In this document: in pieces, positions 38,586-49,878 of the stretch | Position numbering within the stretch: the stretch's first letter is position 1 | Layout of the letters: the number at the start of each line of letters is the position of its first letter | Source of the DNA: Edaphobacter sp. 4G125 | GTDB lineage: Bacteria; Acidobacteriota; Terriglobia; Terriglobales; Acidobacteriaceae | DNA: 64,000 nucleotides | Assembly (NCBI RefSeq): GCF_014274685.1 | Contig: NZ_CP060393.1 | Location: forward strand, 558,001 to 622,000 | Reading direction: 5' to 3' | Made by a program: the position numbers and the translations under genes | Notes under the pieces: model-generated | The model's database searches: none | The model's input: the letters and a program-made list of their open reading frames with translations, nothing else | What the model was told of the DNA's origin: nothing

Positions 38586-39125
38586 TTATTTGACTCCCTT
38601 CGAGGGGTCCCACGATCCCTGTTCCTTCCGGACGAAGACGATCTGCCCGATGTGGTAGGCGTTGTGGGTTCCAACGTGGGCGATGAGCGAGGCGTTTTTT
38701 GCGATGGTTGCGTCATCGGCTGCTTCGACGGCCTTCTCCCAGTCGGTCATGACCTGGTCGAATTGCTTGACGAGATCATTCCACTGCTTTGGGGTGAAGT
38801 TATTGAAGGTCTCGTCGTTGTTTCCATTGAACTGAGCGGTCTTCTCGCCTTTGAAATCCATGAGAGCGCGCTTATCCCAGAAAACGAGGTGATAAGTAAG
38901 CTGGCCGACAGAGTGGTTGCCTTTGCCGTCGGTCCATTTCGCCTGCTCGGCGGTGAGGCCGTGGATGGCGGTATTGCCGGAGGCGAACCAATCCTGGGAG
39001 TTGTGGGTGGTGCGAAGCTGCTCTAACAGGACGCCTTTGAGGGTTGTCGGTGGCTTTGGCGCAGGCGACTGTGCTGCGGCGGCGAATGTGAAAAGACAGA
39101 TCGCAAAGCTGAAGACGATTTTCAT
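38586..39125 (-). CDS. Secreted DinB-like (DUF664/metal-binding) protein
   Basis: The 179-residue product has a signal peptide (residues 1-19, ending FAAAAQ) and a DinB-like four-helix bundle. Three histidines fit the metal-binding pattern of this superfamily: one in QLTYHLVFWDKRAL and two in HVGTHNAYHIGQIVFVRKEQ. Cytoplasmic DinB-like enzymes include thiol transferases; secreted forms are not well understood. A GNAT gene lies downstream on the same strand. Confidence 0.85.
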   Translation of the reverse strand: MKIVFSFAICLFTFAAAAQSPAPKPPTTLKGVLLEQLRTTHNSQDWFASGNTAIHGLTAEQAKWTDGKGNHSVGQLTYHLVFWDKRALMDFKGEKTAQFNGNNDETFNNFTPKQWNDLVKQFDQVMTDWEKAVEAADDATIAKNASLIAHVGTHNAYHIGQIVFVRKEQGSWDPSKGVK

Positions 39126-39218: not shown

Positions 39219-39232
39219 TTGTGACGAACGGC
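39219..39232 (-). promoter_or_regulatory. LytTR-type box (GCCGTTCGTCACAA) upstream of metallo-beta-lactamase-like gene
   Basis: The minus strand reads GCCGTTCGTCACAA, identical over 14 bases to the box at 48689-48702. The CCGTTCGTC core matches the known AlgR recognition sequence. Only one clear copy is present here. Confidence 0.55.
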
Positions 39233-41409: not shown

Positions 41410-41433
41410 CCGATAATCCAAGTTATCGGTAAC
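41410..41433 (+). promoter_or_regulatory. Operator copy with extended inverted repeat upstream of TonB receptor
   Basis: GTTATCGGTAAC (41422-41433) fits the 12-bp motif fully. It also takes part in CCGATAA-TCCAAG-TTATCGG (41410-41429), a 7-bp inverted repeat. It lies 14 bases before the TTGACA box. Confidence 0.6.
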
Positions 41434-41602
41434 GTAAAGTATTTTCATTGACAGCGATCCAACGCAGTCAGTAGTGTTTTGCCGGAACCTCAAAAAACAG
41501 AGCTGTCGCTTTGGGAATAACAGAGACAGACACAGACATAGCTAATGGTTCGGCAAAAAACCTAACCGACGGGAACAACAGGTGATGCAAGAGAGGCACA
41601 TC

Positions 41603-44600
41603 ATGACGACACAGATCGAAGAACTTCGATTCCCTCCCAGGAATCTTCAACAACCAATCCAACGGATACTCGGCTTTAAGACAAAGGCGCTATTAACTTT
41701 GATCGCCGCAGTATGGTTCGTGCTCGGTGGAACCGCAGCGTGGGCGCAGTTTGAATCGGCCTCGGTGCTTGGTTATGTCAAGGACAGCTCCGGAGCGGCC
41801 GTTCCCAGCAGCAACGTCACCCTAACGAACGCTTCAACCGGAATCCAGCAGACCAAGGCGACGGACTCCGAAGGAAAGTTTGAGTTTGCCAGCGTTCAGC
41901 CGGGCAACTACCAGATCACCGCTGAGGCCCAAGGCTTCAGCCGTGCCGTGACAGAGACCTTCTCGGTATTGACCAATGCCCGTCAGCGCGTCGACGTAAC
42001 GTTGAAGGCCGGTTCGGTTTCCGAAGAAGTTACAGTTACCTCGGCAGCGCAGCTTCTGGACACGGAGACCAGCTCGCACTCGACGGTCATCGGTACCAAA
42101 CAGGTTGAAGACCTTCCTCTGAACGGCCGCTCGTATGCGGACCTGGTGCTGCTGGTTCCGGGTGCACGCAAGTCGCTGCTTGAGAACACGACGACGTCGA
42201 GCCGCGAGGGTTCGTTCAACATCAACGGTCAGCGTTCGGCCTTCAACAACTATCTGCTCGACGGTCTGGACAACAATAACTACGGCACCTCGAACCAGGG
42301 CTTCGCCAACGAGAATATTCCGCCTTCGCCGGATGCCGTCAACGAGTTCCGCGTTGAGACCAACAACTACTCGGCTGAGTACGGTCGCAGCCCCGGTGCC
42401 GTGATCAACGCATCGGTCCGTCGCGGCACGAATCAGTTCCACGGCCGCGCCTGGGACTATATTCGCAATACCAATTTCAACGCTATTGGACCGTTTCTGG
42501 CTACTGGTGCCACCAAGCCCAAGTTCATCCGCAACCAGTTTGGCGGAACCTTCGGCGGCCCTATCTGGAAGGACCACACCTTCTTCTTCGCCGACTACGA
42601 GGGTGTGCGGCAGATCTTCAACAACGCCAACGCTACCTCCACGCTCCCCTCTAACAACCAGCGCAACGGCCTGTTCTATCTGAACGACGATACCTCAAAT
42701 CCGAACAACGCCATTCCGCTACAGAACCCGATTACCGGCAAAAAGTACCTGGGCCAGATTCCGACTGCGGATATGACGCCGTTCGCACGCGCTGTTATTG
42801 GCGCCTTGCCCACAGCTAACAACTCGGCCATCCTGTCCAACAACTTTGCCATCACTCCTCGCGGCATCATCAACGACGACAAAGGTGACGGCCGCGTCGA
42901 TCACACTTTCAACGACCGCTGGACCGTTTTCGGCCGCTACAGCCAGCATCAGGGCTATATCTTCGATCCTCCCAGCATCCCCGGACGCGCGGGCGGAAAC
43001 TCGAATGGCAATGTCAACATCAAGAACAAGAACATCGCTGGTGGTGTTACCTGGACGATCGCGGCCAACAAGCTGCTCGACATCCGCTTTGGCTGGTCGA
43101 AGAACGAAGGCGGCAAGTTCCCCATCGGCCAGGGACAGAGCTCGCTGCTGGTTGAGAACGGAATCACTGATGGTCTTCCCACCGACCCGCTCGTTGTCCG
43201 CTCGTTGAACGCGCAGTCAGTCACCGGTTATTCGCAGTTTGGAGCACAGCCGTCGAACCCTCAGTTCCAGAATCCAACAATCTACAACCCGAAGGCCAAC
43301 TTTACCTGGATCAAGAGCAAACACTCCATGAAGTTCGGCTACGAGTGGCAGGCCGTCAACACGGTACTGAACGACTTCAATCCCAGCTATGGCCAGGACA
43401 ACTATCAAGGCCAGTACGCAGCTGATAAGTCAACCAACGGCGGTAACCCGGTAAACACCGCCATAGCCGGTGGTGCGCCGTCGCTGAATTCGCAGCTGCA
43501 GCAGGCGCAGAACCTTGCCGACTTCATGTTCGGCAACCGTTCTGCCTACTCCATCACCACCTACGCTGTCGTCAACCTGCGTCAGCGGTACAACTTCATG
43601 TACTTCCAGGACGACATCAAGGTGTCGCCCAAGCTGACCATCAACGCCGGTCTACGCTATGAGATCGTCACGCCGCAGTATGAAAAGGACAACCGTCTCT
43701 CGAACTTCGACCCGGCGACCAAGTCGCTGATCCACGCTCGCAACGGCGGCATCTACAGTCGTTCACTGGTCAACACCCCGCTGAACAACTGGGCTCCTCG
43801 CTTTGGCTTTGCCTACTCGGCTGACGATAAAACGGTCATCCGTGGCGGCTACGGTATCGTCTACACGCAGTGGAACCGTGCCGGTGGCGAGAACAACCTC
43901 ACCTATAACGGACCTGATGTCGTCAACGCAAACATCTCTCCGCAGGTCGCTCCGACAGCAGCATCGCTCTGCCAGAACGACACGCAGCTGCAATCCTCCT
44001 GCTTCCGTCAGACCCAGCAGGGCTACGCGTCGAACCTGACCACCGCAGCCTACTTCAACCCGTTGAACGTGCTCTCACGCTACATTCCGAAGAACTTCCA
44101 GACTGGTTACGTGCAGCAGTATCAGTTCGGCGTTCAGCGCCAGTTGCCCTATGGCATCACGGCTGACTTGGCTTATGTGGGCAATAAGGGCACACACATG
44201 CAGATTCTGGCCGACTACAACCAGGGCACTCCCTGCCGCGGTACCGGTTGCGCTACGACCTTGCAGCCTCGCCGTCCGATCTCGAACTTCGCCGGCATCG
44301 AGGTGGCATGGGGCGGAGGTTCAGCTAACTACAACTCGTTGCAGTTCAAGCTCGAGAAGCGTGCATCCAAGGGCCTCTACCTGCTGAACTCCTTCACCTG
44401 GAGCCGCTACTTCGATATCTCCTCGGGTCACCTCGAGACCTCGAACGGCGACACCTCTCGCGTCAACTTCGCCAACCCCAGCCGCGACTACGGCCCGGGA
44501 GGGTACGATCAACCTCTGGCCGACACACTCTCCATCGTTTATGACCTTCCTTATGGTCACGGACATCGCTGGGGTGGATCCTCGGGTCGCCTGATGAACA

Positions 44601-45097
44601 CTGTAGTCGGCGGATGGCAACTTACGCTGATCAACACGATGACCAGCGGTTTGCCACTGAACGTCACCTACTCGCTCTCTAACTCGAACCCGATGTATGT
44701 CTCGGATCTGGTTAACTACCGTCCTTACCGCGTAGCTGGCCAGCCTCTCTACGGCAAGACCAAGACCAAGACCGCAACAGCCCTATCGGGTTACTTCAAC
44801 AACAGCGCCTTCCTGCTTCCCACTGATTCGTCGATCAGCTCGGCTGATCCTTGGGGTAGCGCATCCCGTAATCTTGCACGTTCCAACGCCTTCTACCAAG
44901 CCGACCTCGGCCTTCACAAGGCATTTCCACTTTGGAACGACACGTCAAACTTCGACTTCCGGGCCGAAGCTTTCAACGTGCTAAACAAAGTCAACTATAT
45001 GGGTGCCAACACCACTTTCGGTGGTTCGAGCTTCGGCCAGATCACTACCGCATTTCCGGCACGTCAGCTGCAGCTTGCCGCGAAGATTATCTTCTAA
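41603..45097 (+). CDS. TonB-dependent receptor, Oar-like
   Basis: The 1164-residue outer-membrane receptor has a signal segment (LLTLIAAVWFVLGGTAAWAQ), a carboxypeptidase-regulatory-like domain (GYVKDSSGAAVPSSNVTLTN), and a plug with EEVTVTSAAQLLDTETSS, LPLNGRSYADLVLLVPG and FNINGQRSAFNNYLLDGLDN. The large barrel ends in LQLAAKIIF. ATG 41603 has GAGAGG 6 bases upstream; GTG 41582 and ATG 41585 are alternatives. It lies between MIOX and a secreted phospholipase C. I infer that it may import a product of phosphoinositide or inositol-polyol breakdown. Its codon use is strongly biased to C-ending codons, unlike the first receptor gene, which suggests high expression. Confidence 0.94.
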   Translation: MTTQIEELRFPPRNLQQPIQRILGFKTKALLTLIAAVWFVLGGTAAWAQFESASVLGYVKDSSGAAVPSSNVTLTNASTGIQQTKATDSEGKFEFASVQPGNYQITAEAQGFSRAVTETFSVLTNARQRVDVTLKAGSVSEEVTVTSAAQLLDTETSSHSTVIGTKQVEDLPLNGRSYADLVLLVPGARKSLLENTTTSSREGSFNINGQRSAFNNYLLDGLDNNNYGTSNQGFANENIPPSPDAVNEFRVETNNYSAEYGRSPGAVINASVRRGTNQFHGRAWDYIRNTNFNAIGPFLATGATKPKFIRNQFGGTFGGPIWKDHTFFFADYEGVRQIFNNANATSTLPSNNQRNGLFYLNDDTSNPNNAIPLQNPITGKKYLGQIPTADMTPFARAVIGALPTANNSAILSNNFAITPRGIINDDKGDGRVDHTFNDRWTVFGRYSQHQGYIFDPPSIPGRAGGNSNGNVNIKNKNIAGGVTWTIAANKLLDIRFGWSKNEGGKFPIGQGQSSLLVENGITDGLPTDPLVVRSLNAQSVTGYSQFGAQPSNPQFQNPTIYNPKANFTWIKSKHSMKFGYEWQAVNTVLNDFNPSYGQDNYQGQYAADKSTNGGNPVNTAIAGGAPSLNSQLQQAQNLADFMFGNRSAYSITTYAVVNLRQRYNFMYFQDDIKVSPKLTINAGLRYEIVTPQYEKDNRLSNFDPATKSLIHARNGGIYSRSLVNTPLNNWAPRFGFAYSADDKTVIRGGYGIVYTQWNRAGGENNLTYNGPDVVNANISPQVAPTAASLCQNDTQLQSSCFRQTQQGYASNLTTAAYFNPLNVLSRYIPKNFQTGYVQQYQFGVQRQLPYGITADLAYVGNKGTHMQILADYNQGTPCRGTGCATTLQPRRPISNFAGIEVAWGGGSANYNSLQFKLEKRASKGLYLLNSFTWSRYFDISSGHLETSNGDTSRVNFANPSRDYGPGGYDQPLADTLSIVYDLPYGHGHRWGGSSGRLMNTVVGGWQLTLINTMTSGLPLNVTYSLSNSNPMYVSDLVNYRPYRVAGQPLYGKTKTKTATALSGYFNNSAFLLPTDSSISSADPWGSASRNLARSNAFYQADLGLHKAFPLWNDTSNFDFRAEAFNVLNKVNYMGANTTFGGSSFGQITTAFPARQLQLAAKIIF

Positions 45098-46377: not shown

Positions 46378-47130
46378 TTAGCGCTCCAGCCAGTTTTTTA
46401 TGCGTGAGCGATAGGTGCGGCTCATCGGAATCTTTTGACCATTGACCAGATGGACACCATATTCGCCATCTACCTCGGGTCGAACCTCTTTGACATATTT
46501 TAAATTCACGATAGAGGAACGATGGACGCGGAGGAAGACGTTCGGGTCCAGCTTCTCTTCGATGCGTGTCATGGTTTCCCGCAACAGATGAGATTCTGTC
46601 TGTGTACAGATGCGAACGTAGTTTTCTTCTGCGCCAATCCAACAGATCTCCGAGACGGGAAGAAACAGGATGCGCCCCTTCGATTTGAAGACGATACGTG
46701 TCGTATAGGGTGACCCATTCGGGTTTTTTGGTACAGTGGCGTTCGGATTCTGCTTCACGGCTTTGATCTGATCAAGCGCGCGCTGCGTGGCCGAGCGGAA
46801 GCGCTCCAGGGTGAAGGGCTTCAGCAGGTAGTCCACAGCATGAATCTCAAAAGCGCGCAGGGCGTAGCGATCATAGGCCGTCGTAAAGATGATGCACGGC
46901 ATGGTGGGGGCTCCGGCTGCCGAGAGCTGACCCACGACATCGAATCCATCCATATCGGGCATCCGGACATCGAGAAAAAGGAGATCGGGTTTCGTCGCGC
47001 GCACCAGCTCGATTGTTTCGGCTGCGGACGCACCTTCCCCTACAACATCGATCTCGGGAAACTCACGTAACAACTGGCGAAGCTTTTGCCGTGCCAGTAC
47101 CTCATCATCTGCCAGGACTGCCTGAATCAT
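46378..47130 (-). CDS. LytTR family response regulator
   Basis: The 250-residue product has a receiver domain (residues 1-120) with acidic pocket ADDE, phosphoacceptor Asp in LLFLDVRMPDMDG, and KPF near 107. A LytTR DNA-binding domain (about 145-248) follows, with ISEICWIGAEENYV-like strands and HRSSIVNLKYVKEV. LytTR proteins bind pairs of direct repeats. The ATG at 47130 overlaps the kinase stop by one base (TGATG), so both are translated together. It is convergent with the phospholipase C gene. LytTR-type boxes occur upstream of its own unit and upstream of the metallo-beta-lactamase-like gene. Confidence 0.95.
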   Translation of the reverse strand: MIQAVLADDEVLARQKLRQLLREFPEIDVVGEGASAAETIELVRATKPDLLFLDVRMPDMDGFDVVGQLSAAGAPTMPCIIFTTAYDRYALRAFEIHAVDYLLKPFTLERFRSATQRALDQIKAVKQNPNATVPKNPNGSPYTTRIVFKSKGRILFLPVSEICWIGAEENYVRICTQTESHLLRETMTRIEEKLDPNVFLRVHRSSIVNLKYVKEVRPEVDGEYGVHLVNGQKIPMSRTYRSRIKNWLER

Positions 47131-48221
47131 CACGCACCGTATCCTGTTGGCTGTATCGCTGCATGTTCTGCAAAGCGAAGCGGAAATGTTATGACGACCT
47201 GTACCTGGCTTTCATCAATCTCCTTAATCAAAAGCGAATGATGATCGCCGTAATGCATCTTGAGACGGTCCCGAACATTGGCCAAACCAACTCCTCTGCC
47301 GGGAATTCTTCTTGCAGGCTGAATCCCTACTCCTGAGTTCGTCACGCTCAGGCGAAGAGCCGAACCTACCGGGATGGCTTCAATTGCGATCGTGCCATGC
47401 GAGCTGATCCGCGAAAGCCCATGTGCAAATGCATTCTCTACGATGGGCTGAAGGATCATGGTCGGAACGATGGCGTCGTGCACATGGGGATCGATATTGA
47501 TCCTCTGCTGTACGCGCCCGTCAAACCTGCGACCCTGCATGGCCAGGTACATCTCAATGAACTCCATCTCATCGCTTAATGGGATGAACTGCGACTCCCC
47601 GCGATGCAAGGTAATACGCAATAGCTGGCTCAGTTGTTCCAGCATTAAATCTGCGGCAGCCACATCGGTCCTCATCAGGCTGGAGATACCGTTCATCGTA
47701 TTGAACAGAAAATGCGGATTCAGCTGCATTCGCAGTGCCCTCATCTGTGCCTGAAGCAATTGAGCCTGTAACTGCGAGGCCATACGCTCTTTCTCGCGAT
47801 AACTCTGGTAGTAACCAATCCCGCGAAACAGAAAGAAGGCAGACCAGAAGAGCACCAGGCTGTCGATCAACTCAACATCGAGATGGAACAACAGCCGTTG
47901 CAAAAACGGCATCGGTGGTCTTCCCATCGGCAGTTTTGGAAAGAGCAGAACCCAAATCACCTCCTCCACCACACTGGCCAGAAGGCTCAATGGGAAGAAG
48001 AGACACAGAATGGTTTTGAGGTTCGCGGTATTGATCCGCGATCTCAACGTCCACCATAAAATCCAGCACAGGACTCCCCAGATGAAGTACTGCACTCCCC
48101 AGGCCTCTGCCAACAGGCTCAGTTTGACATGCTCATTCCACGAGCGTGAGTAGATCCATTCCTGCAAGGCGAACAAGAGGCCAAGCGACACTGCTCCTGA
48201 GATAAAGAGGAGCGGATGCAT
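47130..48221 (-). CDS. LytS-type sensor histidine kinase (His_kinase family)
   Basis: The 363-residue inner-membrane kinase has four likely spans (about 4-22, 40-58, 69-94 and 117-134) without a large periplasmic domain. A coiled linker and the H-box RMQLNPHFLFNTMNGI with His170 follow, then an ATPase domain with ILQPIVENAFAHGL (N-box), NSGVG and GVGLANVRDRL. Kinases of this kind sense membrane state or small hydrophobic or peptide signals. GTG 48224 directly before ATG 48221 is an alternative start. A 45-residue peptide gene lies 112 bases upstream on the same strand. Confidence 0.94.
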   Translation of the reverse strand: MHPLLFISGAVSLGLLFALQEWIYSRSWNEHVKLSLLAEAWGVQYFIWGVLCWILWWTLRSRINTANLKTILCLFFPLSLLASVVEEVIWVLLFPKLPMGRPPMPFLQRLLFHLDVELIDSLVLFWSAFFLFRGIGYYQSYREKERMASQLQAQLLQAQMRALRMQLNPHFLFNTMNGISSLMRTDVAAADLMLEQLSQLLRITLHRGESQFIPLSDEMEFIEMYLAMQGRRFDGRVQQRINIDPHVHDAIVPTMILQPIVENAFAHGLSRISSHGTIAIEAIPVGSALRLSVTNSGVGIQPARRIPGRGVGLANVRDRLKMHYGDHHSLLIKEIDESQVQVVITFPLRFAEHAAIQPTGYGA

Positions 48222-48335
48222 CACCAGAGGCTGGCCGGTTTCGTTCTTCCAACGCTTGAAGGTCAGGGGCGTAGTCCTCGATCTTTCTTCTCTACACCAA
48301 CCGTCCCAGTTGCGCTTTCATGCGCTCAACAAAGC

Positions 48336-48473
48336 TCATTGATCGCAATCCTGAGTCGCGGAAGATTGCGGCTGATCGCAGAAAGAAGTGGAATGGCTCG
48401 AGGGGAGATAGACCACTGTCGCGAAGAGCAGCAGAGAGATCAGGATGGATTGTTTCAGAGATAGAAAACGCAT
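48336..48473 (-). CDS. 45-residue membrane or secreted peptide upstream of the LytS/LytTR pair
   Basis: The frame starts with ATG 48473 behind a strong GGAGGA ribosome site (9 bases upstream), which supports translation. The product has a basic start (MRFLSLK), one hydrophobic segment (residues 8-27) and a polar tail with two cysteines (SFC and DC). It could be a cleaved signal peptide plus an 18- to 20-residue secreted peptide, or a single-span protein. No homologue is known to me. Its place before a multi-span LytS-like kinase recalls peptide-signalling loci, but this is inference. Confidence 0.55.
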   Translation of the reverse strand: MRFLSLKQSILISLLLFATVVYLPSSHSTSFCDQPQSSATQDCDQ

Positions 48474-48650
48474 CGCAAATTCCTCCGGACGAATCAGCAG
48501 CAGCCCAAGTCGAGCCTTTATAAGACTCGCTGTTTGTTCTTTTACTCTTAAAAATAGATCGGGCCCGGTTAATGCATGGACGTAACAGAGTATCGCTCTG
48601 TCATCCACGATCTCCTGGAAGAAGGCAGTGTTTCATGGCAGAAAAGGCGT

Positions 48651-48702
48651 TCTATATCGTCAAAAATCGCTGTTCGTCACAATTTTCTGCCGTTCGTCAC
48701 AA
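48651..48702 (-). promoter_or_regulatory. LytTR-type direct repeats and promoter of the peptide-kinase-regulator unit
   Basis: GCTGTTCGTCACAA (48669-48682) and GCCGTTCGTCACAA (48689-48702) are direct repeats 20 bases apart that differ at one base. On the minus strand, TATAGA (48656-48651) is a likely -10 box, which places the nearer repeat over the -35 position, as expected for an activator. The repeats match the AlgR core CCGTTCGTC. Confidence 0.65.
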
Positions 48703-48738
48703 ATCTAGCTATCTTTAGCCCAGATACTAAAAGCAATT

Positions 48739-49878
48739 TTATTGCGCTGGGGTGAGGATTCCCACGCCTCGGCCGGTAAGTTCATGGATCAACTCCACTT
48801 CGCGTTGGCGATAAGGGCTTCCGTCCTGACGAAAGACCTCGTGGAACCAGATTGTCGGCTGAGAAAGAACATAGGGATGCTGCCAGGAGTCCCAGGGAAA
48901 GTAAGTCTGGGTTTTTCCTGCCACAAGCCCCCAATTAATGGCCGCTACGTTTAGTTTTTTCGCGAGAGGGAGAATTGTGTCGAAGGTACTGCCACTCCCT
49001 CTCGCCATGTATTCGGTGCATAAGATAGGGCGGTGCAGCGGCTCAAGCGATCGAACGCGGGCTTCAAATTCTTCAGGCCAGCCATAGTTATGGAAGGTAA
49101 TGATGTCGCTTTCGGCGAGCTGAATTTTCGTCATCGGCGATTCCTTAGCCGGATCACTCCAGTCGCCAGCCCATACGCCGCTGGTGAGCGGTTGAGTCGG
49201 TTGAGCGGATCTCGCCCACGCAAAGACCTTCGGGAGCAGAGCGGCTACGAGCTCGGGCTTGTTCTTCGGTTCCTGAAAGCGTCCGCCGTTGGTATTGTCT
49301 GGTTCATTCCACAGGTCCCAGGCGAGGACACGGTCGTCCTTTCCAAAGGCAGAGACAATTCCGACGACATACTCCTTGAGCTTGGGCTCGTAAGAAGGAT
49401 CGGAGAGCTCTGCAGCGCCGGGGCTCTGGACCCAGCCCGAGTTGTGGACACCGGGAATCGGCGGATGCTGAGGGCCGAGATGCGGGTTGGGCTCCCAGCA
49501 GGAATCGAACAGCACGAGAATCGGACGGATATGGTGCCTGGATGCGATTGCAAGAAAAGTGTCGAGGCGCTTGACGAACCCCTTCGGGTCCTGCTGCCAG
49601 AGCTGGTCCTGCAGGAAGACGCGCATGGTGTTCATGCCGATGGATTCGGCCAGGCCGAGTTCACGGTCGTTGATGGTTGGGTTGAAGGTCGCTGCCTGGA
49701 ACATCTCCAGCTGATTGATCGCGTCCGAGGGCACGTAATTGGCTCCGACGATCCAAGGCTGGCGAGCATACCAGGCGTTGGCCTGTTCTTCAGTCCAGCG
49801 GGACTGACCCTGTGTTGTGGAGCCAATCAGAAAGGTGAGAAGAAAGGAAAGGGCAACAAATCGCATCGGCGCCATCAT
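48739..49878 (-). CDS. Secreted glycoside hydrolase, clan A (GH5-like)
   Basis: The 379-residue product has a signal peptide (FVALSFLLTFLIGSTTQGQ) and a TIM-barrel hydrolase pattern. AWDLWNEPDNT holds the acid/base Glu, and PILCTEYMARG holds the nucleophile Glu; the order fits GH5 and related families. The HNSGWVQSPG and FHNYGWPEEFE segments line the cleft. Likely substrates are plant or microbial beta-glycans, but specificity cannot be read. The start may be ATG 49878, 49875 or 49866; no clear ribosome site decides. It lies upstream of the LytTR unit on the same strand, with 265 bases between its stop and the peptide start. Confidence 0.85.
   Translation of the reverse strand: MMAPMRFVALSFLLTFLIGSTTQGQSRWTEEQANAWYARQPWIVGANYVPSDAINQLEMFQAATFNPTINDRELGLAESIGMNTMRVFLQDQLWQQDPKGFVKRLDTFLAIASRHHIRPILVLFDSCWEPNPHLGPQHPPIPGVHNSGWVQSPGAAELSDPSYEPKLKEYVVGIVSAFGKDDRVLAWDLWNEPDNTNGGRFQEPKNKPELVAALLPKVFAWARSAQPTQPLTSGVWAGDWSDPAKESPMTKIQLAESDIITFHNYGWPEEFEARVRSLEPLHRPILCTEYMARGSGSTFDTILPLAKKLNVAAINWGLVAGKTQTYFPWDSWQHPYVLSQPTIWFHEVFRQDGSPYRQREVELIHELTGRGVGILTPAQ

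Follow-up and report, generated by a model that had tools for sequence, protein, structure and literature searches.

A conserved LytTR-type direct-repeat pair before a peptide-lytS-lytTR unit of Edaphobacter sp. 4G125, a probable autoregulatory operator

Two short direct repeats lie in the genome of the soil acidobacterium Edaphobacter sp. 4G125 (Acidobacteriaceae), in the gap between a GH5-like gene (48739-49878, minus strand) and a minus-strand unit that encodes a small peptide, a LytS-type histidine kinase and a LytTR response regulator (coordinates refer to the window, the 64,000-nucleotide stretch that was analyzed). The question raised by this arrangement is whether the repeats are the site at which the regulator controls its own unit and, if so, in which direction. 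The answer reached here is that they are quite probably an operator bound by the operon's own LytTR regulator. Autoregulatory LytTR direct repeats are an element of an already known kind, of which this pair is a new instance.

The repeat pair and the unit behind it

On the plus strand, the 14-mers GCTGTTCGTCACAA (48669-48682) and GCCGTTCGTCACAA (48689-48702) are spaced 20 bp start to start, just where a first-pass annotation of this DNA had reported two repeats 20 bases apart. In the sense of the operon (minus strand) the pair reads TTGTGACGAACGGC-agaaaa-TTGTGACGAACAGC, with the operon-distal half-site, TTGTGACGAACGGC, at 48689..48702 and the operon-proximal half-site, TTGTGACGAACAGC, at 48669..48682. 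The annotation had also likened the core of the repeats to the recognition sequence of AlgR, and this likeness to the core of AlgR sites in Pseudomonas aeruginosa, CCGTTCGTC (PMC4064291), is borne out, with an exact copy of the core at 48690-48698 and a copy with one mismatch, CTGTTCGTC, in the proximal half. In the usual LytTR layout, two repeats, each some 9-11 bp long, are separated by 10-13 bp (PMC4847170, PMC11347149). The present pair matches this layout, its direct repeats standing about two helical turns apart, and is linked to a regulator gene with a LytTR domain (PF04397, 98.2 bits). The spacing and the CCGTTCGTC core fit sites of the LytTR/AlgR type. The resemblance to AlgR extends to the pairing of a LytS/AlgZ-type kinase with a LytTR regulator, but AlgR sites do not, as a rule, come in pairs with a fixed two-turn spacing, and the targets differ.

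The regulator, presumably the protein that binds the repeats, is encoded at 46378..47133 (minus strand; PF00072 and PF04397), and its start overlaps the stop of the kinase gene. Its nearest named model is BtsR: among the 25 NCBIfam models listed for it, BtsR and LytR come nearest, both below cut-off, and no AlgR model is included. A structure query with the LytTR domain gave 3d6w as the only good match. The host genome (4.25 Mb in one contig) contains two LytTR genes in total. The kinase is present in 22 of 62 genomes of the genus and in further Acidobacteriaceae; the named relatives are Edaphobacter and other members of that family.

The kinase gene (47130..48266, minus strand; PF06580 and PF02518) is drawn here from a CTG codon at 48266, whereas open reading frame finding placed the start at a GTG 14 codons later (48224). 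The CTG is kept in 28 orthologues, including all 22 of the Edaphobacter group and six from outside the genus, and is mostly preceded by a GAGG-type ribosome site. Because the codon is conserved and in-frame stops occur shortly before it in four loci (L043, L137, L044 and L205), translation of lytS probably starts at the CTG rather than at the GTG.

The first gene of the unit (48336..48473, minus strand) encodes a signal-peptide-like protein of 45 amino acids. Counterparts of 39-54 amino acids were found in eight relatives, with a common core around LISLLLFAAVAYLPSSH and variable tails. Pairwise dN/dS values of 0.10-0.24, taken only from pairs without saturated synonymous sites, point to purifying selection, and the peptide is therefore probably translated. 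In other orthologues its place before lytS is occupied by a Sel1-repeat protein. The N-terminus of that protein in E. aggregans (MQLLRIPTSLSIALLACVLYLPSLHA) resembles the 45-amino-acid peptide, and so the peptide is probably a remnant, namely the signal-peptide end, of a Sel1-repeat gene, an origin judged by eye.

Conservation of the repeats among orthologous loci

The first-pass annotation had proposed a comparison with orthologous loci, and the repeats came through that comparison well. We scanned the 2 kb upstream of 40 lytS-lytTR loci, besides the window's own, for TGTGAC[C/G]A (TGTGACSA). It turned up in operon orientation in 32 of the 40 loci and in the reverse orientation in 2, while dinucleotide shuffles gave a mean of 1.96 and a maximum of 6; these counts come from related species, and the 40 loci are not independent observations. 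A more tolerant pattern for the whole pair matched 19 of the 40 loci (shuffles: mean 0.05, maximum 1), and the spacing between the halves is 21 bp in 15 of the orthologous pairs and 20 bp in 3. Within the Acidobacteriaceae the motif is retained even where kinase identity has fallen to about 50%; the pair in one bog metagenome-assembled genome (L131), for example, reads TGTGACCAATCGC-atgtctcc-TGTGACCAACAGC. The half-site was not found in three of the 40 orthologous loci scanned (L044, L198 and L148), and several loci, including that of the close relative L205, have no clear second half at 20-21 bp.

The motif is also absent from all 18 paralogous LytTR loci, searched up to 1.5 kb upstream and including the other LytTR gene of the host genome. 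The orthologue footprint and these motif-free paralogous loci together support a LytTR-type element that belongs to this particular operon. The presence of the sites, their conservation, spacing and strand, and their association with the operon are established; binding by the regulator, the position of the promoter and the sign of regulation are what we infer.

The two halves are not equally conserved, the distal one being near-invariant across the orthologues and the proximal one degenerate. This asymmetry resembles that of the sites for YpdB at yhjX of E. coli, where a strong A site is followed in tandem by a weak B site (PMC4847170), and of the two halves the distal one is likely to bind strongly and the proximal one more weakly. 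YpdB belongs to another LytS/LytTR system, but it acts on a transporter gene and its half-site, GGCATTTCAT, is unlike the one in the window. The footprint yields a concrete operator consensus, TTTGTGACSARYNGC, with a period of 20-21 bp.

Promoter, sign of regulation and competing readings

The model we favor for the locus is that the LytTR response regulator would bind both repeats, paired at a distance of two helical turns, with the distal half probably serving as the strong site, and that the bound protein would control transcription of its own unit, that is, of the small secreted or membrane peptide, the kinase and the regulator. The first-pass annotation went further and proposed self-activation from a promoter with a TATAGA -10 box (48651..48656, minus strand; TCTATA on the plus strand) and the proximal repeat at its -35 position. 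The geometry is as described, with GTGACG of the proximal repeat overlapping the -35 position at four of six matches to TTGACA and an 18-nt spacer, but the box itself is weak and unconserved. A promoter scan of 48200-48760 found none, and no conserved -10 position emerged over 18 orthologous pairs (the best mean, -4.48, falls under the 95% shuffle level of -3.69). Better conserved than TATAGA is a second block, located 65-100 bp downstream of the pair (48575..48605, minus strand), which reads GATRACRGAANCGTAT...GTCCAT in relatives and GATGACAGAGCGATACTCTGTTACGTCCATG here; it is a possible candidate for a promoter or leader element. In some other loci a block resembling it, CGATAAC, is found again close to the Sel1 gene.

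Known LytTR systems offer precedents for either sign. Repeats located upstream of the -35 usually activate, and Streptococcus mutans LytTR operons with such repeats activate themselves (PMC6193735). The LytTR Regulatory System (LRS) operons of this species, HdrR and BrsR, share with the present locus a direct-repeat pair with a period of about 21 bp before the regulator's own operon (PMC6193735). The partner in those systems is an inhibitory membrane protein, however, whereas the partner here is a histidine kinase with His_kinase and HATPase_c domains, and the regulator here has a receiver domain. In the opposite direction, CoxC of Afipia carboxidovorans represses through LytTR repeats that overlap the -35 (PMC11347149). 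CoxC sites resemble the present ones as direct repeats with two-turn spacing near a -35, and an array of three is found also in the relative E. aggregans; the CoxC half-site is TTNNNGCN, though, and CoxC, for which repression has been shown, is a one-component membrane sensor. With activation from upstream pairs and repression by CoxC both on record, either sign is plausible, while autoregulation as such is well supported. The first proposal holds in that the repeats belong to this operon, and its positive sign goes beyond what the sequence can tell.

Negative autoregulation, in which the regulator would cover the -35 region and repress its own operon, is the most serious of the competing readings, though still a minority one. 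The CoxC precedent speaks for it, as does the location of the proximal repeat, which would sit on the -35 if TATAGA is indeed the -10; the half-sites, in their AlgR-like orientation (GTTCGTCAC), furthermore point away from the lytS-lytTR operon. Yet TATAGA is unsupported as a promoter by either the scan or the orthologues, and most LytTR regulators activate, those of S. mutans activating their own operons from repeats upstream of the -35 (PMC6193735). A positive loop, operating while the kinase is active, seems likelier to us than repression.

It is improbable that a different regulator binds the repeats and merely happens to control the operon. The TGTGA part does recall a CRP half-site, and such pairs also occur at TonB-dependent receptor genes in other genomes, but the repeats are direct and stand at LytTR spacing, and their core matches the site of a LytTR protein; a CRP-like reading is ruled out because the halves are not inverted. 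Furthermore, strict pairs (GTGACSA-N13/14-GKGAYSARYNGC) occur in 10 of the 22 genus genomes that have the lytS-lytTR system and in 1 of the 40 without it, an excess to which the operon's own sites contribute, and the dinB-like and uvrD-like sites considered below are found only in genomes with the system. A chance repeat or an unselected duplication might be suspected from the mere two copies in the window's gap and from the incomplete pair of the close relative L205, but conservation far above the shuffled and opposite-strand controls effectively refutes this reading.

Sites elsewhere and a possible wider system

If the repeats are an operator for the LytTR regulator, the same protein probably acts at a few other genes as well, notably a dinB-like gene and a uvrD-like intergenic region, which would make up a small candidate regulon. 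The initial annotation, correct about the pair, had missed the conserved half-sites at both of these places. A third half-site in the window, an exact GCCGTTCGTCACAA (39219..39232, minus strand), reads toward a gene of the DinB superfamily about 100 bp downstream (38586..39125, minus strand; PF12867; signal-peptide-like N-terminus), and its AlgR-like orientation (GTTCGTCAC) points toward that gene. Nine genomes of the clade, counting that of the window, possess the gene, and all nine keep this half-site; it is missing in 18 other dinB-like orthologues, nine of them from genomes without the system.

The strict pair occurs at two places only in the host genome, the lytS-lytTR operon and a site (G000:C1:1321406-1321438; L082 5007-5039) flanked by a uvrD-like helicase gene and by a small divergent gene whose product of 112 amino acids has no Pfam match. 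Of the 17 genomes examined that carry the system, 12 have the uvrD pair, as against 0 of 12 without the system, although the 12 carriers seem to form one clade and phylogeny may account for part of the pattern. Several matches in the wider scan of the genus fell inside genes, and only intergenic, recurring ones were therefore used. With candidate targets named and orthologues available in named Edaphobacter strains, binding, sign and signal become directly testable.

Some relatives show related arrangements. In two loci of the E. lichenicola type (L045 and L046), pairs stand before the Sel1-lytS-lytTR operon and beside a divergent gene for a TonB-dependent receptor. E. aggregans has three half-sites spaced 20 and 21 bp apart (L088 5031-5083; G034:C1:115930-115982), which precede a gene for a TonB-dependent receptor by about 220 bp, and similar pairs lie near such genes in three further genomes (G030, G018 and G066), all of which carry this lytS-lytTR.

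A much bolder proposal, which we regard as doubtful, is a three-part system common to the acidobacterial family. In it, a Sel1-repeat protein that is secreted, and of which one lineage keeps only the conserved signal-peptide-like protein of 39-54 amino acids, would act with a LytS kinase translated from the conserved CUG start, and the LytTR protein would control itself together with TonB-dependent receptors, the DinB-like protein and the uvrD-like helicase. If this were true, the kinase would have in the short peptide a functional partner or a signal, and not a piece of debris. Among the papers searched, judged by title and opening lines of abstract, none dealt with a LytTR regulon of Acidobacteria.

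The TonB-dependent receptor gene that neighbors the unit in the window itself (41582-45097) was also considered as a target and was rejected, since no such site is present there. Rfam and tRNA scans of the 64,000-nt window gave no matches. The region before this receptor gene (41410-41500, plus strand) does contain a palindrome of the LacI-operator type, CGTTATCGGTAACG (also written GTTATCGGTAAC), which is accompanied by a TTGACA-like box and is partly conserved in related loci.
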